From positions 17,585-81,584 of the IMG/VR virus record IMGVR_UViG_3300030110_004856: 64,000 bases of DNA; one strand, given 5' to 3'. Each line of letters opens with the position of its first letter. Within the stretch, counting starts at the first letter, position 1. The notes beneath the pieces were generated by a model. The model had not been told where the DNA came from, ran no database searches, and saw only the letters and a program-made list of their open reading frames with translations. A program made the translations under genes and the position numbers. This document shows positions 4,662-59,893 of this stretch, one piece after another. The DNA is from a virus.

Positions 4662-4705
4662 ATCTAAAAACTGTCTGTATAGTGTTAGGAAGATTCTACT
4701 TCTGT

Positions 4706-5878
4706 ATGGCCAAAATTCTCTGGTATGGAGATGCAGTTTCTCATACGGGTTTTGCACGTGTAACCCATAGTCTCCTAGAGCACCTCAGCAAAAACCATGA
4801 AGTTGTAGTGTTCGGTATTAACTATAACGGAGATCCGCACCAATACGATTTTAAAATCTACCCTGCAGCCGGGGTTCATCCTGGTGATCGTTTTGGTTTG
4901 GCTCGTTTACCTTCAGTGGTTGAGGAAGAGAAGCCTGACTTCATTATCGCTGTAAACGATATCTGGATGATCAATCAGGTGTGGGAAAAGATTCATTTCC
5001 TGCAACCAACTCTGGGTTTTAAATTCATACCTTACTTCCCCATTGACTCTGAGCGGTACGTAGATTCTATGCTCAGGTATGTGCAGGACTGGGATTTTTC
5101 AGTCACCTTTACAGTCCAACAAGCACAGCGCATCCAAAATCACAATGTCCAACCGAAGATGTTGGGTGTTCTTCCTCATGGTATTGACGCAGAGAAGTTC
5201 TTCCCCATGGATCAGGAAGAAGCTCGTAGAAAGTTGAGTCTTCCTGCAGGTAAATTCATTGTCCTCAACGCTAATAGAAACCAACCTCGCAAACGAATTG
5301 ACCTGACAATCCAAGCATTTGCTGAGTTTGCTAAGGACAAACCCGACACCATGCTCTATCTGCATATGGGTGAGAAAGATTTGGGATGGAGCGTTCGTGA
5401 AATCTTTAACTCAGAAATGCAACGACGCGATCTAGACCCAACGAACCGGTTGATTATGACCGCACGGAATATCAACTATATGGCTCCGCCTACCGACGAA
5501 ACACTAAACTTAATCTATAACTCCTGTGACGTTGGTATAAATACAGCAGATGGAGAAGGTTGGGGACTCGTTCCATTCGAGCATGCGTCGTGTAAAAAAG
5601 CACAAGTGGTTCCTGACCACACGTCTTGTCGAGATATTTGGCGTGGAAGTGGATGTCTAATCGATGTCGCGGCTTGGGTTCGAGATAAAGATCTCAGCGT
5701 TGAAAGAGGAATTATCGACGTTTCTTCTGCCGTCGACCATCTCAACAAGCTTTACAACGACAAGGCATTTAGAGACGAAGTAGCTCAAGAGTGCTACGAA
5801 GTTACGCAGAATCCCAGTTACCGCTGGGATCAGATTGCACTCGGATTTGAAAAAGCAATGGAGGATCTGTCCAAATGA
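4706..5878 (+). CDS. Glycosyltransferase, GT4-like
   Basis: 390 residues from ATG at 4706. ILWYGDAVSHTGFARVTHSL is the N-terminal Rossmann strand and Gly-rich loop of GT-B enzymes. VLNANRNQPRKRIDLTIQAF and the E-x7-E motif EGWGLVPFE near residues 287-295 are GT4 hallmarks for retaining transfer from a nucleotide sugar. An in-frame ATG at 4682 adds eight poorly conserved residues, so I prefer 4706. It is on the opposite strand to terL, with a 44-bp divergent gap. Its stop overlaps the start of the propeller gene (ATGA). The acceptor is unknown. Confidence 0.85.
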   Translation: MAKILWYGDAVSHTGFARVTHSLLEHLSKNHEVVVFGINYNGDPHQYDFKIYPAAGVHPGDRFGLARLPSVVEEEKPDFIIAVNDIWMINQVWEKIHFLQPTLGFKFIPYFPIDSERYVDSMLRYVQDWDFSVTFTVQQAQRIQNHNVQPKMLGVLPHGIDAEKFFPMDQEEARRKLSLPAGKFIVLNANRNQPRKRIDLTIQAFAEFAKDKPDTMLYLHMGEKDLGWSVREIFNSEMQRRDLDPTNRLIMTARNINYMAPPTDETLNLIYNSCDVGINTADGEGWGLVPFEHASCKKAQVVPDHTSCRDIWRGSGCLIDVAAWVRDKDLSVERGIIDVSSAVDHLNKLYNDKAFRDEVAQECYEVTQNPSYRWDQIALGFEKAMEDLSK

Positions 5879-49024: not shown

Positions 49025-49201
49025 ATGTCGTTTATTTTCAACAACTGGTCCGAGATTGTCGGAGTCGCAGGTGCAGCTCACTTGGTAGCTTTGGCAATCG
49101 TGAACCTCACGCCCACGCCAGCCGATAACGAAGCCTATGCTCGTTTCTACAAAGTAGTTGAGAAGATGGCTGGTCTCTTCACGAAAGTGTCGAAGCAGTA
49201 A
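49025..49201 (+). CDS. Small membrane protein (58 aa)
   Basis: ATG at 49025 to TAA at 49201, 58 residues (MSFIFNNWSEIVGVAGAAHL...). A hydrophobic segment (GVAGAAHLVALAIVNL) is followed by a charged tail with YKVVEKMAGLFTKVSK. The pattern resembles small cyanophage membrane proteins and could be holin-like. Its end overlaps the convergent HNH gene by 23 nt. Confidence 0.5.
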   Translation: MSFIFNNWSEIVGVAGAAHLVALAIVNLTPTPADNEAYARFYKVVEKMAGLFTKVSKQ

Positions 49202-49586
49202 GTGCTTTGTCAGGTGAAGGGGGTGGACTGAAAACCACCCCTATAACCTTGACTGAGACGAATCGATCATGGTCAGCATACTGCCATTGAAAGATTTTAA
49301 GCTCAAATTCCCCGGAATAAAATTTCTGCTGTCTGTACCAAGTAAACCAGTCCTCGTCAGATTTACGGAGGTTACAAGGTCCACAGCATGCAACTAAGTT
49401 GTGTCTTCTAGTGGCACCTCCCTTACTCTTTGCCTGGATGTGATCGAGGGTATAAGCCTCATCACTTCCGCAGTAGGCACACTGGTTGTTCCAAGAGTCT
49501 TTTATATCCTTTCTGAATTTCTTCCGGGCAGTACTCTTGCACAAACACTCAAGAGAAGAGATGAGTTCCTGCTCGGAATCAACCAT
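49179..49586 (-). CDS. HNH endonuclease
   Basis: 135 residues. CAYCGSDEAYTLDHIQAKSK, then GGATRRHNLVACCGPCNLRK, is an HNH nuclease with two CxxC pairs and the D-H...N...C core. It would nick or cleave DNA, as a homing-type or packaging-associated nuclease. It stands before the large fibre genes in leftward orientation. Confidence 0.88.
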   Translation of the reverse strand: MVDSEQELISSLECLCKSTARKKFRKDIKDSWNNQCAYCGSDEAYTLDHIQAKSKGGATRRHNLVACCGPCNLRKSDEDWFTWYRQQKFYSGEFELKIFQWQYADHDRFVSVKVIGVVFSPPPSPDKALTASTLS

Positions 49587-49666: not shown

Positions 49667-51520
49667 TTAAATAGTATCAAGAATAAGAAGACCAGAGGGG
49701 GACACTGCTTTAGCAACGGGAGCCCAAGAGTAAGATCCAGCAGACCAATTATCAGCCTGCCCTGAGGTTGTTGTAAAACCACTTGCAGTCGGATCAACGT
49801 AGTAAAAATAACCAGTTAACAAGCCAGTATTGCTGTAGTCAATCGATCTCGGTGCGTTAACTGTTACAAGGTCACCACTCGCAACGGTGGACTGAGCACT
49901 TCCGATAAAGTTATTGACTGAGTTTAAGGTCGGGAATACAGACGCCCCTACCGAACCCACCACGGCTTCTCCGTCTTGATTGCTGTCGTTTGTGTAGCTA
50001 ACGACAACTCGTTGATTAGAAGAATCGTAAACGCAACCTATATAATTAACAACAACAGAACTAAATGCACTAGAAGGACCAAAACTAATAGTTAAATCAT
50101 CAACAGTACCCACTACCGCTGATCCGTAACTACTGTTAGTGAAATCTTTATAAGCAAGCACTACCTGATTAAGAGTTGAGTCATAAGCGGCACGATTATA
50201 AAAAGCTCGACCATTTAGAAACTCAACAACAGAACCAAATGTTATGGTTGTGCCAGAAATTGAACCTACAACCGCATGACCTTTAGTAAGCCCAGTATAA
50301 GCATAATAAGCAATCACTAATCTCTGATTAGAAGTGTCGTAGGCGACCCCAAAGTCTTGACTGTATACACTAGAAAAAGTCACCGCACTACCAGGAAAAG
50401 ATATGCTTGTACCTGATACGGTGCCCGCAATTGCTATACCGTAATCAGAACCACCGTCATCTTGGAAAACAACAACTACTACGTTGTTGTCAGGGTCAAA
50501 CACGGCCTCGAGGTAATTAACAGCTACAGTTCTAAAAACTGTTGAACCCCCAAAACTAATAGATGTCCCTGTAACAGTGCCTACTTTGGCAGTGCCATAA
50601 TTACTGTTATTTGTATCTTCGTAAACTACGACAACTTTTTGATTAAAGGAGTCATATGTAATGTTCGCTTTGTTAGTTACGAACGAATTGAAGTCTGTAG
50701 AACTGCCCCACGAACTCGTGGTACCAGTAATTGTCCCCACCCTTGCAGCACCGTAGGCAACACCACCAGCATCCCGTGTGTAGCAAACAACTACTTTACT
50801 ATTAGCAGTATCGTAAGTTATACCACGAGGAATACCCCATGCAGAATCAACAACAACTGGAGAGCTAGGAAAAGAAATAGTTGAACCGGATACTTCACCT
50901 ACATTCGCAGTGAGGTAGTTACTATTATTTTGGTCACTATAAGCAATTACGATCTTATTACCAGAAGAGTCGTAAGTTGATACACCATACTGATCATTTC
51001 CACCACCGTAAGTAACAGCAGTGCCAAAAGACCTTGCTGTTGAGTCAGTTTGGGAGACCACAGCGCTAACCCTTCCGTTATCGTCCAACCCAACAGGATT
51101 CCCTGCCTGAATAACACTAGAAGCAGTAAGGATAACGGAACTACTTCCTGCAAAATCAACAGCCGCTGTCAGAGCAGCGTTACCAGAAGCAAGTGCAGTA
51201 TTTGCATCGGCTAAGCCTGCCACACCGCTGGCTAGAGCGGGAACTGCATCAACTAAGGCAGCATTACCTGAAGATAAGGCAACATCAGCAGTAACAATAT
51301 CAGCACCATCCATGCCGATAGTGTCGCCAACAAAAATTACGCCGCTAGGGTTCGAGGCGAGTGCAACATCAAGCCTTTTATTTCCAGTTTGTAAGTCTCC
51401 GCCGCCGACTAAACCACTACCCGGAATAAGGTTTCCGAGTTCACCACCTTCAACTTGAACACCCGGAGGCAGCTGGCTGAGCGCTCCGTCTATGTAAATA
51501 AGAGGGAGTTTCTCAGCCAT
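49667..51520 (-). CDS. Fibre paralogue 1 with seven tandem repeats
   Basis: 617 residues. The N-terminal part has ALASGNAAL-type repeats (about residues 80-120). Seven repeats of about 50 residues fill about residues 170-520, each with a YDSSNxxVVIAY strand and a GTVSGTSISFG turn. The last 90 residues contain the GYFYYVDPTASGFTT segment found in all three fibres. Seven blades of this length suggest a beta-propeller, so a receptor-binding role is plausible. It has the most diverged repeats of the three. Confidence 0.75.
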   Translation of the reverse strand: MAEKLPLIYIDGALSQLPPGVQVEGGELGNLIPGSGLVGGGDLQTGNKRLDVALASNPSGVIFVGDTIGMDGADIVTADVALSSGNAALVDAVPALASGVAGLADANTALASGNAALTAAVDFAGSSSVILTASSVIQAGNPVGLDDNGRVSAVVSQTDSTARSFGTAVTYGGGNDQYGVSTYDSSGNKIVIAYSDQNNSNYLTANVGEVSGSTISFPSSPVVVDSAWGIPRGITYDTANSKVVVCYTRDAGGVAYGAARVGTITGTTSSWGSSTDFNSFVTNKANITYDSFNQKVVVVYEDTNNSNYGTAKVGTVTGTSISFGGSTVFRTVAVNYLEAVFDPDNNVVVVVFQDDGGSDYGIAIAGTVSGTSISFPGSAVTFSSVYSQDFGVAYDTSNQRLVIAYYAYTGLTKGHAVVGSISGTTITFGSVVEFLNGRAFYNRAAYDSTLNQVVLAYKDFTNSSYGSAVVGTVDDLTISFGPSSAFSSVVVNYIGCVYDSSNQRVVVSYTNDSNQDGEAVVGSVGASVFPTLNSVNNFIGSAQSTVASGDLVTVNAPRSIDYSNTGLLTGYFYYVDPTASGFTTTSGQADNWSAGSYSWAPVAKAVSPSGLLILDTI

Positions 51521-51557
51521 TAATACTACCTAGTTACTTTTATTTTATCGGATAAAC

Positions 51558-51917
51558 TTACTCTGGAAGCCCCGATTCGCTTGATTCAGAATCTGCAGAG
51601 TCTGTTGCAAAAGGTGGGTTAGGTGGAACAGCAAGACGAGGATCAACCCAGTTCGGATTCAAAACCCAACCGTCGTCAGTTGTGTAAAGATACTTCCAAC
51701 CATACCAGTTGCCCGGATCAGTAACGCCTTCGTGAAGCACTACATTACTTGAGTTGCAATCCATGATGATGACATCAGGTTTGCTGGGATCGCCGATGAC
51801 GGTTTTGTCGGATTCAATAAGAACCTGTTTATCGTCCTCAATGAGGTAGATACTGACATTAGGTCCGTCTGTAAAATCCGGCAGTCGGCAGATTGTTTTC
51901 ATGGAAATAAGACTCAC
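51558..51917 (-). CDS. Unknown protein between fibre genes (119 aa)
   Basis: 119 residues, mostly beta-like, with an acidic Ser-rich C-terminus (TDSADSESSESG). It lies between two fibre genes and could be a fibre-assembly factor or a small tail protein. No family is recognised. Confidence 0.5.
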   Translation of the reverse strand: MSLISMKTICRLPDFTDGPNVSIYLIEDDKQVLIESDKTVIGDPSKPDVIIMDCNSSNVVLHEGVTDPGNWYGWKYLYTTDDGWVLNPNWVDPRLAVPPNPPFATDSADSESSESGLPE

Positions 51918-51934
51918 TTAACAACTATACAGAC

Positions 51935-53782
51935 TCACACGCTATCAGTCAGGTACAACTCAGTAGAAGATACCGCTCTTCCTATTGTTTGCCACGCTGT
52001 TCCGCCTGACCAATCTGCAGGAGCAGTACTAGAGGTTGTAATACCACTAGAAGTGGGATCAACGTAGTACCCAGAACCCACAACCAAACCAGTGTACATG
52101 GTCTGTACTGTACCCGGAAGTCCCACGGTCACAGCAGAGCCACTAGCGGCAACAGTTTTTGCGACACCGATAAAGTTGTTTAGAGAAGAAACTTTGGGCA
52201 CAATTGAAGAGCCGGGGGAGCCCACCACAGCAGTACCGTAACTTCCGTTTCCGACATCTCTGTAAGCTATAACAACTCTATCGTCTGTAGAGTTATAGGT
52301 AGCGGATATGTAGCCAGAATCAGCTGCTTCAAAAACCACTGCAGTGCCGAAGGATATAGTAGTACCAGAAACAGTACCGACAATCGCAGTACCATAACTT
52401 GAGTTTGAGCCGTCTTCATAAGCTATAACAACTTTATCGCTTGTGGAGTCGTAAATAGCGCTAATAAAGTTAGTAACACCAGTTTCAAAAACAACTGCAG
52501 TACCGAACGATATAGAAGTACCAGTAACACTACCGACGATTGCAGTACCGTACAAGTTCCAGCCATCTCTGTAAGCTATTACGACTCGCTCTTCTTTGGA
52601 ATCGTAGGTAGCGGATTGATGTGTAACTTGTTGACTTACATAAACAACTGGAGTACCGAATGAAATAGATGTACCAGAAACAGTACCAACAACTGCAGTA
52701 CCGTAATCTGAGTTTCCGGCATCTCTGTAAGCTATTACGACTCGGTCAATTGTGGAGTCGTAGGTAGTACTAATTTGATAAGTAGCGGCTGATTCGAAAA
52801 CAACTTCACTACCGAATGAAATAGATGTTCCAGAAATAGTGCCGACGACAGCTGTTCCATTATCAGAGTTGCTACCATCCGTATAAGCAACAACCACCTT
52901 GTTACTAGTGGAGTCAAATACTGCTGAAATGTTTTCACAAAATTGGCTTCTAAAAATAGTTGCACTACCGAATGAAATAGAGGTACCGGAAACAGTGCCA
53001 ACAATCCCGAAACCGGGATAATTAGGGGCGCTTTGCTGTCTATAAAAAATACCTACTTTATTATTAGTAGAGTCGTATACTGTTGAAACAAATCTAACTT
53101 CAGTAGATTCAAAAACAACTGGAGTACCGAATGAAATAGAGGTACCAGAAACAGTGCCGACAACTGCAGTACCGTAATTTGAGTTTCCGTCGTCTGCGTA
53201 AGCTATGACAACTCGATTATTTGAAGAGTCGTAGGTAGTGGAAATGTACTCAGAGTTAGCAGTTTCAAAAACAACTGGTGTTCCGTAAGATCTAGTAGCT
53301 CCATCAGTAACAGTAGTAATAGGTCTAACTTTACCTAAATCATCTAAACCAACAGAATTACCCACAGCTACAGTGCTTGAGGCTGTAAATTCTGCCTCCA
53401 GACCTCCCGGTGTAGCAGAGATCGCTTCAAGTGCAGCATTTCCACTTGCTAAAGCAGTTTGAGCAAGAGCAATAGACGCATTACCACTTGCCAAAGCAGT
53501 AGAAGCAACTCCGATAGCCTGGTTTCCACTTGCGAGTGCAGCTTCTCCAAGACGTAGCGCTACACCGTCGTCACCCAGCTTATTACCGACAAAGATCAGA
53601 CCGCTCGGATTCGGAGCGATCGACACATCAATCTCAACATCTTCACCTAAATTCCCTCCTCCACTATCGTCTAGACCACTGCCTGCGATTAGAGTTCCTG
53701 GTGATGCACCAATTAGCGTGTCACCAGGAGGCAGCTCAGTCCGAAGGCCGCTAATCGAAACAACAGGACGCCGCGCTACCAT
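51935..53782 (-). CDS. Fibre paralogue 2 with seven tandem repeats
   Basis: 615 residues. Same plan as the neighbours: an N-terminal ALASGNAxI repeat zone, seven propeller-like repeats (about residues 169-523; for example YDSTNNKVGIFYRQ, GTVSGTSISFGTPVV), and a YYVDPTSSGITT C-terminal segment. Repeat identity is high within this copy, which favours recent duplication. It is a candidate receptor-binding tail fibre; strand arrangement is inferred. Confidence 0.78.
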   Translation of the reverse strand: MVARRPVVSISGLRTELPPGDTLIGASPGTLIAGSGLDDSGGGNLGEDVEIDVSIAPNPSGLIFVGNKLGDDGVALRLGEAALASGNQAIGVASTALASGNASIALAQTALASGNAALEAISATPGGLEAEFTASSTVAVGNSVGLDDLGKVRPITTVTDGATRSYGTPVVFETANSEYISTTYDSSNNRVVIAYADDGNSNYGTAVVGTVSGTSISFGTPVVFESTEVRFVSTVYDSTNNKVGIFYRQQSAPNYPGFGIVGTVSGTSISFGSATIFRSQFCENISAVFDSTSNKVVVAYTDGSNSDNGTAVVGTISGTSISFGSEVVFESAATYQISTTYDSTIDRVVIAYRDAGNSDYGTAVVGTVSGTSISFGTPVVYVSQQVTHQSATYDSKEERVVIAYRDGWNLYGTAIVGSVTGTSISFGTAVVFETGVTNFISAIYDSTSDKVVIAYEDGSNSSYGTAIVGTVSGTTISFGTAVVFEAADSGYISATYNSTDDRVVIAYRDVGNGSYGTAVVGSPGSSIVPKVSSLNNFIGVAKTVAASGSAVTVGLPGTVQTMYTGLVVGSGYYVDPTSSGITTSSTAPADWSGGTAWQTIGRAVSSTELYLTDSV

Positions 53783-53816
53783 AATTTTGTGACCTTTAAA
53801 TCCACTTTAGCCTGGG

Positions 53817-55658
53817 TCAGATTGACTTGAGCAACATCAAACCGCTCGAAGTAACGGCGCGACCGATATAGTTCCAAGGAACTTGACCCTCCCAACCTCC
53901 CGGTGTACCTGATGTTGTTGTAACACCACTAGTTGTTGGATCTACATAATAAAACTCGCCAGTTGTTAGACCTGCTGTTGGGTCTGTGTACAAACTTCCA
54001 GGTAAAGTCACGAGGCAAGGAGAACCACTGGCCACGGTGGATTGAGATATACCGATAAAGTTGTTTTTAGAAGAAAGTGTGGGTAACGTAGATTCTCCAG
54101 GGGAGCCAACTTGAGAAGTACCGTATCGGGAGTTTCCGTCGTCTCTGTAAGAGATAACTACTCGATCGTTTGTAGGGTCGTAAACAGAGGAAGGAAAATA
54201 AGTACTTGCCGCATTCACAACAACTGGAGAACCAAATGAAATAGATGTACCAGAAACAGTACCAATAATTGCAGTAAGGTACCCAGAGTTTGCTCTGTAA
54301 GAAACAATTACTTTATTGTTAGTAGAATCAAAAACGGTTGCTGTATATTGAAGGGAATTTGAGTCGAATTCTGCTTCAGTACCAAAAGAAATAGATGTTC
54401 CAGAAACAGTGCCTACAATGGCAGAACCGGTGTTACCGTCGTCGGAGTAAGCTATGACGACTTTATCATTAGAAGAGTCGAAACAAGGGTAAGCATACGA
54501 AGTATCACCAGAACTATTAAAAACAACTGCAGTACCAAACGAAATAGATGTACCCGAAACAGTACCAACGATTGCAGTACCGTAACCTGAGTTCCCGTTA
54601 TCCCTGTAAACAAGCACTATTTTATCGTTTGTAGAATCGTAGGTGCTAGAAGGGAAAGAAACTCCGGATGCTTGAAAAACTACTGGAGTACCAAATGAAA
54701 TAGATGTACCAGAGATAGTGCCAACCACTGCGGTGCCATAACTTGAGTTTCCTCCATCTGTGTAACTTACAACGACTTTATTATTTGTAGAGTCGTAGGT
54801 AATAGAAGAAGCATAAGTAGCACTTGTGTTGTAAACAGCTTGAGCACCAAACGAAATAGATGTTCCTGAGACAGTACCAACTACTACACTGCCTTGCTCT
54901 GAGTTCGAACTGTCAGTGAAAGTTATGGCAATTCTATTATTTGAAGAATCGTAAGTAGAACCAGTAGTGTATACAGCAGAAGAATGAAAAACTACTGGAG
55001 TACCAAAAGAAATAGATGAACCAGATACAGTACCAACTACAACAGTACCATAACGTGAGTTTGCGTCGTCGTAGTAAGCTACAACAACTTTATTATTAGT
55101 AGAGTCGTAAGCTGTAGAAAAGTCTCCAGATTCAGCATTCTCAAAAACTACTTGTGAACCAAAAGTTCTGCTATTTCCATCAGTAACTTGAGCAATAGCA
55201 GTAACTTTACCTGCATCATCCACGCCAACAGGATTACCTGCTTGAACAACACTGGAAGCTGTAAACACAGCAGTAGGGCCGCCGCCACCAAGAGTTGGTA
55301 CTAAATCCAGAGCAGCATTACCAGATGCGAGAGCTGCTGTTCCAACAGAAAGCGCAGCGTTACCGGAGGCAAGAGCATCAACTGAGTCAGTTAAAGCTGC
55401 ATTACCCGAACTAAGTGCGGTTGTAGCGTTTACAAACGAAACGCCGTCATTACCGATGCTGTCTCCTACGTAAATAACGCCACTAGGGTTAGCTGCTATC
55501 GCAAAATCGAGCCTAGTAGCAGCTCCGATAGCGCCGCCACCGACCAGACCACTCCCAGCGATAACTTCAGTAGAAGACCCTCCGGTTTGTACCGTATCTC
55601 CCGCGAGGAGTTCGGAAACTAAACCATCTTCAGTGACTAAGGGGCGGCGGCGGACCAT
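53817..55658 (-). CDS. Fibre paralogue 3 with seven tandem repeats
   Basis: 613 residues with the same domain plan. ALASGNAAL repeats lie near residues 83-120, seven blades near 169-520 (YDSTNNKVVVAYYD, GTVSGSSISFGTPVV) and a YYVDPTTSGVTT C-terminus. Three such genes in tandem suggest fibres of different specificity. It is 34 nt upstream of paralogue 2. Confidence 0.78.
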   Translation of the reverse strand: MVRRRPLVTEDGLVSELLAGDTVQTGGSSTEVIAGSGLVGGGAIGAATRLDFAIAANPSGVIYVGDSIGNDGVSFVNATTALSSGNAALTDSVDALASGNAALSVGTAALASGNAALDLVPTLGGGGPTAVFTASSVVQAGNPVGVDDAGKVTAIAQVTDGNSRTFGSQVVFENAESGDFSTAYDSTNNKVVVAYYDDANSRYGTVVVGTVSGSSISFGTPVVFHSSAVYTTGSTYDSSNNRIAITFTDSSNSEQGSVVVGTVSGTSISFGAQAVYNTSATYASSITYDSTNNKVVVSYTDGGNSSYGTAVVGTISGTSISFGTPVVFQASGVSFPSSTYDSTNDKIVLVYRDNGNSGYGTAIVGTVSGTSISFGTAVVFNSSGDTSYAYPCFDSSNDKVVIAYSDDGNTGSAIVGTVSGTSISFGTEAEFDSNSLQYTATVFDSTNNKVIVSYRANSGYLTAIIGTVSGTSISFGSPVVVNAASTYFPSSVYDPTNDRVVISYRDDGNSRYGTSQVGSPGESTLPTLSSKNNFIGISQSTVASGSPCLVTLPGSLYTDPTAGLTTGEFYYVDPTTSGVTTTSGTPGGWEGQVPWNYIGRAVTSSGLMLLKSI

Positions 55659-55682: not shown

Positions 55683-56189
55683 CTAACTAAAGAGGTCTAC
55701 AGGTGGTTGGATTTCTACGTGTAAAGCAGTACTACTAATAGCAAGTCCAAGATTAACAAGGCTAGCGTAACCGCTTGCAGCGGTAACAGTTCCAGAAGCA
55801 GTACTGAACTCAGTAAGCTCCCCTTGAGACTTGGACAGATAATAATATTGTCCAGGAACTAGAGCAGTACCAGCAGTAATGTTGGCAGCACTTACGGTTG
55901 CAATATCGTCCAAATTGACCGAAACAGTGGCATTTTGCACCGCTGCCTCTGCAGTAAGGCCAATTGCTTGGTGTTGAGCTGCGTCCACACCGCTTGCGGC
56001 GGTAGCCGGGACTGCATAAACTCCACTCACATAAACGACCTCACCTTGAATAAGGTCAGCACCTGCTACAAAATCTACTAGAGATGTAGGTGAAGAAGAA
56101 GTAACACCGCCGCCATTAACGAGGAAAACGGGAGTGTCCCCAGGTTGAAATTCAGTGTACTTTCGATTGAAAATCGCCCGGTTAGTCAC
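55683..56189 (-). CDS. Beta-rich tail or decoration protein (168 aa)
   Basis: 168 residues, Val/Ala/Ser/Thr-rich, with EVVYVSGVYAVPATAASGVD and LVPGQYYYLSKSQGELTEFS. The YYYLS segment echoes the fibre YYVDPT segment, and the protein is related in style to that at 59414. It lies between fibres and the tail-assembly gene. Likely tail-associated. Confidence 0.55.
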   Translation of the reverse strand: MTNRAIFNRKYTEFQPGDTPVFLVNGGGVTSSSPTSLVDFVAGADLIQGEVVYVSGVYAVPATAASGVDAAQHQAIGLTAEAAVQNATVSVNLDDIATVSAANITAGTALVPGQYYYLSKSQGELTEFSTASGTVTAASGYASLVNLGLAISSTALHVEIQPPVDLFS

Positions 56190-56331: not shown

Positions 56332-56838
56332 TTAGGTAGGTTCGACGGGCCAGGTGACAGTCCAGGGGAACCCTTCTTGTTCCGGCAACGCTCTTAAGGA
56401 CGCACGATAGTCAGCCCACACGCCTTTGCCATCCTCATCTAAAGGAGAATCAGTTAACTGAGTCCAGTCACATTCAGTTAGTTTCTTATTACGTAAGCTA
56501 CGTACACTACCTGCTTGAACTGCATCTACGTTAGCTTCATACTCAGCTTGCTTAGACAGTGCAGTAGTTGTAACACCATTTTCATCAACAGAATCAGTGA
56601 AAACAGGACCTACTATGTAGCGTGTAAACCAGTTTCCATTAATCTCCTGGACGCCGGATCGTACACTGGTCTGGTAAGGAGGAGTGCATACAGCAGCTGG
56701 CCCCTCAAAAACAGGGTCCACGCCGAAATTATCCATCGTTTCACGGCTAATAACCTTAGGAAACGAGGTGTTGGGGTGGCGGAAACGGAATTCAGATTCC
56801 GTAATTACCTCACCAGTGTCGCGAATACGTAATTCCAT
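56332..56838 (-). CDS. Tail assembly chaperone-like protein
   Basis: 168 residues. The C-terminus has RNKKLTECDWTQLTDSPLDE, then WADYRASLRALPEQEGFPWT with a final VTWP, matching the Phage_tail_APC pattern (tail fibre assembly proteins). The N-terminus is an unrelated beta-rich part. It probably assists fibre assembly and is placed among fibre genes. Confidence 0.75.
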   Translation of the reverse strand: MELRIRDTGEVITESEFRFRHPNTSFPKVISRETMDNFGVDPVFEGPAAVCTPPYQTSVRSGVQEINGNWFTRYIVGPVFTDSVDENGVTTTALSKQAEYEANVDAVQAGSVRSLRNKKLTECDWTQLTDSPLDEDGKGVWADYRASLRALPEQEGFPWTVTWPVEPT

Positions 56839-56859: not shown

Positions 56860-58809
56860 TTAAGCAATCGCTATGAAGATAAAAGTACCTCCTACAGCGT
56901 TAAGATCGTTAGGGGCTGTTGCTGTTACTGTAAACCCAGCGGTTAGTGGGTCAAGCCAATCATTCCCCGAATAAGCATTACCAGGGTCTCCATCCATGGT
57001 ATATGCGTCTTCATTGCCGGTGCCAATGCCACGAATTGTGTCCCAATAAAGCCATTGACCGGCAACATCAGTGCGCTTGATCATCACAAACCTTGCGCCT
57101 CCCGTAAACCCACAGTCGACATCAACAGCAGCACCAGTTCCTGTGTAGCTACCTATTTTCGATATACCGTCTACAGATGCGAATAGCCAGGCGATAAAAA
57201 GTTGGCCGTTGTTATTAGTATCACCGCCTAATGCAGCACCAACCCTAAACACGCTTGAAGTGGGTGTTGTGTTGTCCCAACAGTAGATATCACTAATGTC
57301 TGCATTATCTCTATTGAGTCGCATATTTGTCCCCGGTCCAGAGGTTGCGTTGTAAACAGTAAAATCACTTGAAAATTGTCTGCCTTTTACAATGATCAAC
57401 TCTGGTACAGCTTGGAGATTATGAGATATGTTTTGCTGTCCAGTGTTTCCCACGGCTGAACCTGTTCCGGTGTAGCAAACTATATCCATGAAGCCGGGAG
57501 CACGGCGTAGAGTGTAATTAATGAAAGCACTACTACCCCAAAAACTTGTTTGCAAAAAGCCAAAGTTTCTTTCCCCATTGAAAAAACTAACAGTATTTAC
57601 TTCACTACCAATACCGGTAGCTAGATAAGAAATTGACAGACGAGAATACCAATATTTGTAAATATTACCAGTGCCCGGATTGTTGAAATCAATAAGCAGA
57701 TCTCCAAAGACTGTTGAGCTACTCAAGGAGCCACTGGTGTCACTAGCGGCTGACTGTAGATCGAACACTTCCGTTGCAGCTGCGGGCGGCTTATTCGGAC
57801 GGCGGATTGCTACGTAGATGTAAGTTTGACCTGTATTATTCGTGTCGCTATAGAGATTGTTCAGCGTAAACCCGGTCGCATTTAACCGCATAAAGTCATA
57901 AGACTGCTCTGCGTCACTAGCGTTTGGCTTTAAACTGGCATCATTGTAGCCTGACGGTATCCCACGCACATAGTCCGCAAGAGTCCAGTTAGTACTGCTT
58001 TGACTTGAGCTTTTTACCATCACCCATTGCGGTTCAAATCCAAGGTCAACAAAGACATCTGACGAACCTCCTCCCGTATATGACCCACACTTAATAATCG
58101 CCTCATTCCTGTCTGTGCCAAACGATTGAGCATCGTTAGCGAAAAGGTAAGCTACGTAGTTTTTGCCCGATGCGCTCCAAAGACTGCCTACTGTAAATTG
58201 AGTGGATGTAGGCGCAGTGTCATTCCAATAAATAGGGCTTGTGCTACTAGCATCAGTGTTGAAGCTCATACCAGATGTTGCACCCAGAGACGTGTGAAAA
58301 ATCGCCCAGTTTTGAGCATCATCCAGTGCCTTGACGAGTATAAAGCCCGGTGTAGTCCCTAGGTCATGGTCTATGGTTTGTGCTGCACCTGAACCTGAGA
58401 ATTTTTTTATCGTAAAAAATCCAGGTGCTTTCCGGAAGCTCCAGGAGGCAAAAGTTTCTGTCCCAAAATTCTGATTAGCTGGAAACTGTTGATTCCATGT
58501 AAAACCATTACTGTTGTAGGTTATTGCATCTGTATATGCGGTGCTTTCTCCGTTTAAGAGGTTAGTACTTAGAGATGGAGTTGTCCCTCTTTCGGTGTCA
58601 AATAAATAATGGTCTCTTGTTGTATAGTATCCAGAACGCCATTTCGCCCAAACCAATCCCCCTTCACCGTTTAAATCAATCCCATTCGTGATTGTTTGAG
58701 TGCTGCCGTTGCCGTCATACAAAAACGTACTAAAAACGTCATCAACATAAATAGGGTCACCTGCTGCACCAGCAGCACCTTCCATTAGACGTTGAGTAGT
58801 AGGATCCAT
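56860..58809 (-). CDS. Large tail protein with internal duplications
   Basis: 649 residues. Duplicated segments: APGFFTIKKFSGSGAAQTID and APGFMDIVCYTGTGSAVGNT; GSYTGGGSSDVFVDLGFEPQ and GSYTGTGAAVDVDCGFTGGA. These tandem beta units resemble large marine-phage structural proteins. Gly/Ser/Thr/Asn-rich with many aromatic residues. It is likely a tail fibre or tip protein. It ends 21 nt before the tail-assembly gene. Confidence 0.65.
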   Translation of the reverse strand: MDPTTQRLMEGAAGAAGDPIYVDDVFSTFLYDGNGSTQTITNGIDLNGEGGLVWAKWRSGYYTTRDHYLFDTERGTTPSLSTNLLNGESTAYTDAITYNSNGFTWNQQFPANQNFGTETFASWSFRKAPGFFTIKKFSGSGAAQTIDHDLGTTPGFILVKALDDAQNWAIFHTSLGATSGMSFNTDASSTSPIYWNDTAPTSTQFTVGSLWSASGKNYVAYLFANDAQSFGTDRNEAIIKCGSYTGGGSSDVFVDLGFEPQWVMVKSSSQSSTNWTLADYVRGIPSGYNDASLKPNASDAEQSYDFMRLNATGFTLNNLYSDTNNTGQTYIYVAIRRPNKPPAAATEVFDLQSAASDTSGSLSSSTVFGDLLIDFNNPGTGNIYKYWYSRLSISYLATGIGSEVNTVSFFNGERNFGFLQTSFWGSSAFINYTLRRAPGFMDIVCYTGTGSAVGNTGQQNISHNLQAVPELIIVKGRQFSSDFTVYNATSGPGTNMRLNRDNADISDIYCWDNTTPTSSVFRVGAALGGDTNNNGQLFIAWLFASVDGISKIGSYTGTGAAVDVDCGFTGGARFVMIKRTDVAGQWLYWDTIRGIGTGNEDAYTMDGDPGNAYSGNDWLDPLTAGFTVTATAPNDLNAVGGTFIFIAIA

Positions 58810-59413: not shown

Positions 59414-59893
59414 TTAAGCAGATGCGGTCTCTAGATCAATAGTCGATCCGTCTTCTAATAATAACGCGTCAATCGATATTCCGAAACTGGATTCAAGAAG
59501 GATAACTGAATTTGGATTAACGGTAAGCTGAGGGGGTATAGTCTCAATAGATAAAGTTGTGGGAGTGATTACGCGGCCTACATTAGTTAAAAAAGCATCT
59601 AGAGAGACAGCTGCTAACTCAGCAAAAAACTCACTAGAAGAGATTAGTAAACCAGGAGTGATAATAGATAAAAACCTAAAGTCACCAGGAGTCAGACCAG
59701 AATAACCAGTGTAAACTCCATCAGCGTTGACACGAAGTATGGCCCCAGAGCTTACCGTATCGATTGCAATCCCAAGAACCGATGCTTTAGTAACTGTGTC
59801 AGCTGCGGCAAGTGCAGCCTGACCGGTTGAAGTCACATAGACCGCGTTTCCAGCAGAAATGTTTTCGCTAGCAATTAAACTCGCAATCGCCAT
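59414..59893 (-). CDS. Beta-rich tail protein (159 aa)
   Basis: 159 residues, Ala/Ser/Thr/Val-rich (NISAGNAVYVTSTGQAALAA, ILRVNADGVYTGYSGLTPGD). The segment pattern resembles the fibre C-termini and the protein at 55683. No family is recognised. Virion-associated by position. Confidence 0.55.
   Translation of the reverse strand: MAIASLIASENISAGNAVYVTSTGQAALAAADTVTKASVLGIAIDTVSSGAILRVNADGVYTGYSGLTPGDFRFLSIITPGLLISSSEFFAELAAVSLDAFLTNVGRVITPTTLSIETIPPQLTVNPNSVILLESSFGISIDALLLEDGSTIDLETASA

Follow-up and report, generated by a model that had tools for sequence, protein, structure and literature searches.

The closest described systems are beta-propellers of phage tails and bacterial lectins. According to the accessible part of its published description (PMC4901313), the receptor-binding protein (RBP) of phage phi11 has its last blade closed by an N-terminal strand; the same part describes gp131C of phage PhiKZ (PDB 4GBF) as a seven-bladed tail propeller thought to bind a receptor or to degrade cell material. 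In the lectin PHL, a seven-bladed propeller that binds fucose and galactose, a monomer has as many as twelve sites (PMC5584973), and in highly repetitive beta-propellers the number of blades forms a continuum (PMC9218822). Here we describe three fibre genes on the minus strand of a 64,000-nucleotide stretch of DNA from an uncultured virus of bacteria (the window), which corresponds to bases 17585-81584 of the 81,584-base IMG/VR virus record IMGVR_UViG_3300030110_004856. The proteins encoded by these genes are probably receptor-binding fibres, each with an exchangeable and probably glycan-binding “head” that is moved as a cassette by recombination.

Seven repeats and a predicted propeller

The genes were numbered as slots in the order of transcription: slot 1 (53817-55658, 613 residues), slot 2 (51935-53782, 615 residues) and slot 3 (49667-51520, 617 residues), which an earlier note, made from the sequence alone, had called paralogues 3, 2 and 1, respectively. 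A 52-position hidden Markov model found seven repeats in each of the three proteins, in agreement with the seven repeats of about 50 residues given by the note. The repeats occupied 54084-55175 in slot 1, 52199-53299 in slot 2 and 49934-51037 in slot 3. Strict motif counting was rejected because it undercounted the repeats: a strict search for the GTVSGTSISF-type motif gave 3, 6 and 5 copies in slots 3, 2 and 1, and the rest of the copies were present in diverged form. Slot 3 was the most diverged, as had been noted, with 46% identity to slot 2, whereas slots 1 and 2 were 55% identical; the median blade identity within the protein was 41% in slot 3 and 59 and 52% in the other two proteins. The ASGNAAL motif, previously placed at the N-terminus, was instead located in a stretch with a 14-residue period (residues ~82-118) behind a leader of ~70 residues. 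Residues 1-125, which contained the leader and this “stalk”, were encoded at 55284-55658 (slot 1), 53408-53782 (slot 2) and 51146-51520 (slot 3).

Relatives of the repeat were confirmed in 2.9 million viral contigs (at least 556) and in genome contigs (15), and yet no family matching it was found in Pfam, PHROGs or NCBIfam, so that a widespread repeat is without a family in these collections. The Pfam match to Cyclophil_like2 (E 3e-6 to 1e-5 over the whole protein) was rejected as a repeat artefact, since no single stretch passed and the matches covered ~35 residues of one repeat, and the NCBIfam matches (beta-lactamase and FumD) were far below the cut-off. Among the matches listed, 149 complete open reading frames (ORFs) carried the repeat: 130 with seven copies, seven with 14 and one with 28. 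Five others scored eight, consisting of seven strong matches and one of less than 5 bits. Of the remaining six, a single ORF had six repeats, and 3-5 repeats were recognisable in five diverged ones. In the copies displayed, the ORFs with 14 repeats had them arranged as two sets of seven. Seven is the quantum of the repeat number, carried as 7, 14 or 28 by 143 of these 149 listed ORFs once the weak eighths were discounted, and the seven repeats in the window genes are not due to chance. A 2350-residue protein (L088:3535-10584) on a contig binned as Euryarchaeota had 28 diverged repeats in four groups of seven and is possibly a four-propeller protein. In two near-identical phages, the slot 3 genes (L107:12634-14325 and L108:11862-13709, 564 and 616 residues) were exactly one blade apart, and the L107 gene is either an allele with six blades or the product of a collapse in the assembly.

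The slot 2 protein was modelled as a monomer with AlphaFold2 (AF2), using an alignment with 82 relatives. The predicted local distance difference test score (pLDDT) was 96-98 across residues 165-520, which formed the propeller, and the predicted strand pattern recurred seven times; two helices at residues 74-99 and 102-123 were predicted in the stalk. The best matches of the model in a Foldseek search of the PDB were mostly beta-propellers, and the highest target template modelling (TM) scores, 0.75-0.78, belonged to the seven-bladed PHL lectin of Photorhabdus. The high pLDDT, the propeller matches and the quantum of seven give good support to the seven-bladed propeller, for which structure prediction had been suggested beforehand as a check. 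The first repeat contributed an outer strand (GTPVVFES) that was missing from the last repeat, and this repeat phase suggests that the ring would be closed by an N-terminal strand, as in the phi11 RBP in the accessible part of its description (PMC4901313). The diverged slot 1 head of the relative L001 was predicted with lower confidence (mean pLDDT 73), but its A-B-C strand triple occurred seven times and most of its matches were propellers; a deeper-relative search for this head returned four loci only.

A split socket domain and the exchange of heads

The repeats were flanked by FTASSxxxxGNxVGLDDxGKV before and NNFIG...YYVDPTxSG... after, which were two halves of one domain, here called the “socket”. 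In slot 1, the first half (FTASSVVQAGNPVGVDDAGKV) was located at 55176-55283 and the second half (NNFIG...YYVDPTTSG...LLKSI) at 53820-54083; the second halves of slots 2 and 3 were at 51938-52198 and 49670-49933. The YYVDPTxSG motif, which had been described as the end of the proteins, does follow the repeats but is part of the C-terminal half of the domain split by the propeller. The locus was compared in 13 related metagenomic phage records, which comprised 11 distinct genomes after near-duplicates were removed and in which L104 and L001 were the same contig. Alleles with an “empty” socket, in which the two halves were joined with no repeats between them, were found in L112 slots 2 and 3 (249 and 245 residues), L115 slot 1 (247 residues) and L118/L119 slot 3 (247 residues). 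Slot 1 was empty in L115 and filled in L116, although their N-termini were 98% identical. The empty-socket profile aligned end to end with two other window proteins on the minus strand, one of 168 residues (55683-56189; hhalign probability 96.8, E 2.6e-10) and one of 159 residues (59414-59893; probability 96.8, E 2.5e-10), both with an uninterrupted socket domain. These comparisons indicate that the propeller is an insertion that interrupts a small socket domain, whole copies of which are encoded by neighbouring genes. Scores against Phage_cement_2 (PF09956) stayed below the gathering cut-off of 24 bits, the best being 22.6 for L112 slot 2 and 18.6 for the 159-residue window protein; such weak scores point to a cement-protein-like fold of the socket without establishing membership of the family.

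All 13 related records had exactly three slots. Between the window and L104, the identities of N-terminus, head and C-terminus were 96, 29 and 60% in slot 1, where the heads are unrelated, and 93, 47 and 75% in slot 3, whereas the slot 2 propellers belonged to the same lineage and were 95% identical and fully colinear. Between L115 and L116, the corresponding values over the three slots were 98/empty/85, 98/47/99 and 98/53/87%, and between L107 and L109 in slot 2 they were 94/33/78%. Of 33 N-termini and 33 C-termini, 32 each had their best match in the same slot, compared with 14 of 29 heads. On the trees, the slot label changed three times for the N-terminus, twice for the C-terminus (the minimum is two) and 12 times for the head; the last number was no better than that of shuffled labels (mean 13.9, as low in 33/200), although long branches left parts of the head tree unsure. 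Two direct exchanges between slots were found: the slot 1 head of the window matched the slot 3 head of L104, the closest relative of the window, at 86% amino acid identity, and the L105 slot 3 head matched the L107 slot 2 head, also at 86%. The slot 3 head of the window was of a cassette lineage apart from those of slots 1 and 2 and grouped in the tree with the heads of L105 slot 3 and L107 slot 2. In the moved cassettes, the synonymous divergence (dS) of the head framework was 0.13-0.17, compared with 1.1-1.4 in the remainder of the same gene pairs.

The N- and C-termini thus stay bound to their slots, while the heads are exchanged between slots and phages and are sometimes absent. The “three diverged tandem paralogues” of the earlier note hold for the stalks and sockets, which are slot-bound paralogues, but not for the heads, which the trees, swaps and empty sockets reveal as mobile cassettes. 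Identity fell sharply at the socket. In both L105 and L107, slots 2 and 3 shared 98% identity over the left socket arm (63 nucleotides) but only 59-61% in the N-termini, and for this reason the transfer of heads resembles homologous recombination inside the socket. A reading as the target of a diversity-generating retroelement was rejected, since no reverse transcriptase (RVT_1) match was obtained in the 81,584-base record, which may be incomplete, although positive controls were detected. A literature search that covered few subscription papers found no account of such a cassette system.

Plain triplication followed by divergence, in which the heads would be vertical paralogues differing by fast point mutation only, would account for the colinear slot 2 heads of the window and L104 at 95% identity and for the fast evolution of the loops described below. 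It is nevertheless very improbable, because heads changed slot at 86% identity and stalks did not, empty sockets exist, identity dropped abruptly at the socket, and the head tree disagreed with the stalk tree. There is similarly little chance that the swaps and empty sockets are artefacts of metagenome assembly from repetitive DNA. Some proteins do contain near-identical blades, and the L107 and L108 genes differ by one exact blade in an otherwise near-identical sequence; however, the swapped heads were 86% and not 100% identical, so that chimeras of co-assembly do not account for them, the empty alleles came from three lineages and had a socket that was intact, short and free of gaps and that aligned with the neighbour genes, and the window and L104 are separate records. 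Exchange of head cassettes remains our preferred explanation.

Variable loops, proposed function and the three slots

Over 1013 distinct blades, entropy peaked at blade columns 17-21 and at columns 37, 39 and 43. These columns corresponded to the loop that follows VVFES and the loop surrounding YxDxGNSx, whereas the other two turns were more conserved. Both hypervariable loops should be on one face of the propeller because connections alternate in a four-stranded blade. The median blade identity within a protein spanned 31-88% (77, 78 and 84% in the proteins of the relative L068), and some heads look recently amplified from a single blade because the median reached 88%.

Based on these results, we propose that each gene encodes a fibre in which a leader at the N-terminus is followed by a helical stalk built on a 14-residue repeat and by a small β socket of cement-protein-like type, and that a closed seven-bladed propeller would be inserted in one loop of the socket. 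One face of the propeller, with two hypervariable loops per blade, would bind to the surface of the host, with glycans as the most likely ligands. Each of the three sockets would be a fixed position, probably mounted on a different tail site or subunit, and recombination in the conserved socket halves flanking the head would shift cassettes between slots and phages and could also leave a socket empty. Such an exchange would alter the binding specificity and leave assembly untouched, and it suggests a route for a phage to change its binding without rebuilding its tail; a broader host range from the gene set, as the earlier note had put forward, is plausible. The quantum of seven, the socket insertion, the empty alleles, the exchange between slots and the loop variability are the comparative evidence for this proposal.

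The ratio of nonsynonymous to synonymous substitution rates (dN/dS), a check suggested beforehand, also speaks for it: in four comparisons, it was 0.7-1.3 in the loops and 0.16-0.41 in the framework. Several points weigh against the proposal. The loop classes were picked from the same data, so that the difference in dN/dS is in part circular. Because the survey started from a query with seven repeats and its matches were ranked, it was biased towards sevens, although adjacent ORFs in the surveyed loci, picked without ranking, likewise had seven repeats. No Trp-dominated blade column was found over the distinct blades, unlike the sugar sites of PLL/PHL lectins. Every close relative was a metagenomic assembly, and six-bladed sialidases and integrins had Foldseek E-values equal to or better than those of the PHL lectin. 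Sialidases held the top E-values, and tail enzymes are common among phages, which would favour propellers that degrade glycans (sialidase- or hydrolase-like depolymerases) instead of binding them. Such an enzymatic role is improbable. Sialidases are six-bladed, near-equivalent blades (median 31-88%) are better suited to a series of like binding sites than to a single asymmetric active site, hypervariable positions were present in each blade, and searches of Pfam and NCBIfam gave no match to a catalytic family. A binding head continues to be the favoured function.

The stalk, predicted to be helical in the AF2 monomer model and with a 14-residue period in its sequence, is presumably trimeric. 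In unrelated phages with full flanks, the arrays contained one head (8), two (1) or three (12), and never four or more. In L130, L135 and L139, the propeller fibres were replaced by pairs of stalk-only proteins, encoded downstream of the anchor gene. The stalk-only pairs in deeper relatives were matched in length within each genome (503/501, 211/211 and 503/503 residues). These array sizes and matched lengths, together with three slots in all 13 records and slot-specific N- and C-termini, are compatible with one heterotrimeric fibre bearing three different heads; if so, a single fibre would show three heads, each independently exchangeable or absent, as a combinatorial receptor-binding device. 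This arrangement is unlikely compared with three homotrimers, since the known propeller fibre, the phi11 RBP, is a homotrimer in the accessible part of its description (PMC4901313), single heads occur too, and equal stalk lengths may reflect only equal reach.

The description of the three genes as tandem holds in that they are neighbours on the same strand, but they are not strictly contiguous, as a 119-residue gene (51558-51917, minus strand) sits between slots 2 and 3. Every one of the 13 related records had this gene, with 58-92% identity; a family match was looked for and none was found, and the gene is possibly a fibre chaperone. Upstream of the fibre genes were a tail fibre assembly chaperone (56332-56838, minus strand; PF16778, E 2e-21), which gives the tail context, a protein with two stretches matching DUF7483, a tail-fibre-type domain (56860-58809, just upstream of the fibre set), and further tail-fibre-like genes; downstream were an HNH endonuclease, small genes and an endolysin. 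The HNH endonuclease gene (49179-49586, minus strand) directly adjoined slot 3 here and in all 13 related records, but deeper relatives that lack propellers had it too, so that it was rejected as a specific driver of the swaps. In Lentibacter phage ICBM2, a distant relative (25% identity) sits among tail assembly chaperone genes. The window also contained genes for a terminase, a DNA polymerase, a primase, the endolysin and the tail-fibre region, and a predicted glycosyltransferase (phrog_2170, E 1.6e-45) was encoded next to the terminase gene, at 4682-5878 on the plus strand.

Comparison with known systems

The phi11 Gp45 RBP resembles the window proteins in its helical stem followed by a propeller, but it has five blades and is encoded by a single gene, and the accessible part of PMC4901313 describes no insertion into a second domain and no slot exchange. 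PhiKZ gp131C is likewise a seven-bladed phage tail propeller; the likeness is by description in the same part of that source, and the protein was absent from the best 50 Foldseek rows of the slot 2 model. The PLL/PHL lectins of Photorhabdus (PMC5584973) share seven four-stranded blades, multiple sites per ring and the best target TM-score, whereas the window heads lack the conserved Trp and any sequence match in the PDB (no match at E<=1 when a window protein was searched with phmmer for PLL/PHL homology), and PLL/PHL are not part of a phage fibre. Like the highly repetitive beta-propellers of PMC9218822, some relatives have near-identical blades, with medians up to 88%; at the 60% median-identity cut of that study, the window proteins (41, 52 and 59%) fall below and those of L068 (77, 78 and 84%) above. 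The strict seven is notable because those propellers form a continuum of blade number, while the number here is almost strictly 7n among the matches listed.

The exchange of heads over conserved mounts makes this locus a clear natural case of a plug-in phage binding head, with a ring in a socket that is empty, filled or swapped in near relatives, and the relation of head sequence to host choice becomes testable through comparisons of a single domain. In tail fibre mosaicism (PMC10386132), the receptor-binding part is also exchanged over a conserved mount, but by replacement of a C-terminal domain. Here, the exchanged part is internal and flanked on either side by a conserved split domain, and the heads move among the three slots and may be missing from a slot altogether.

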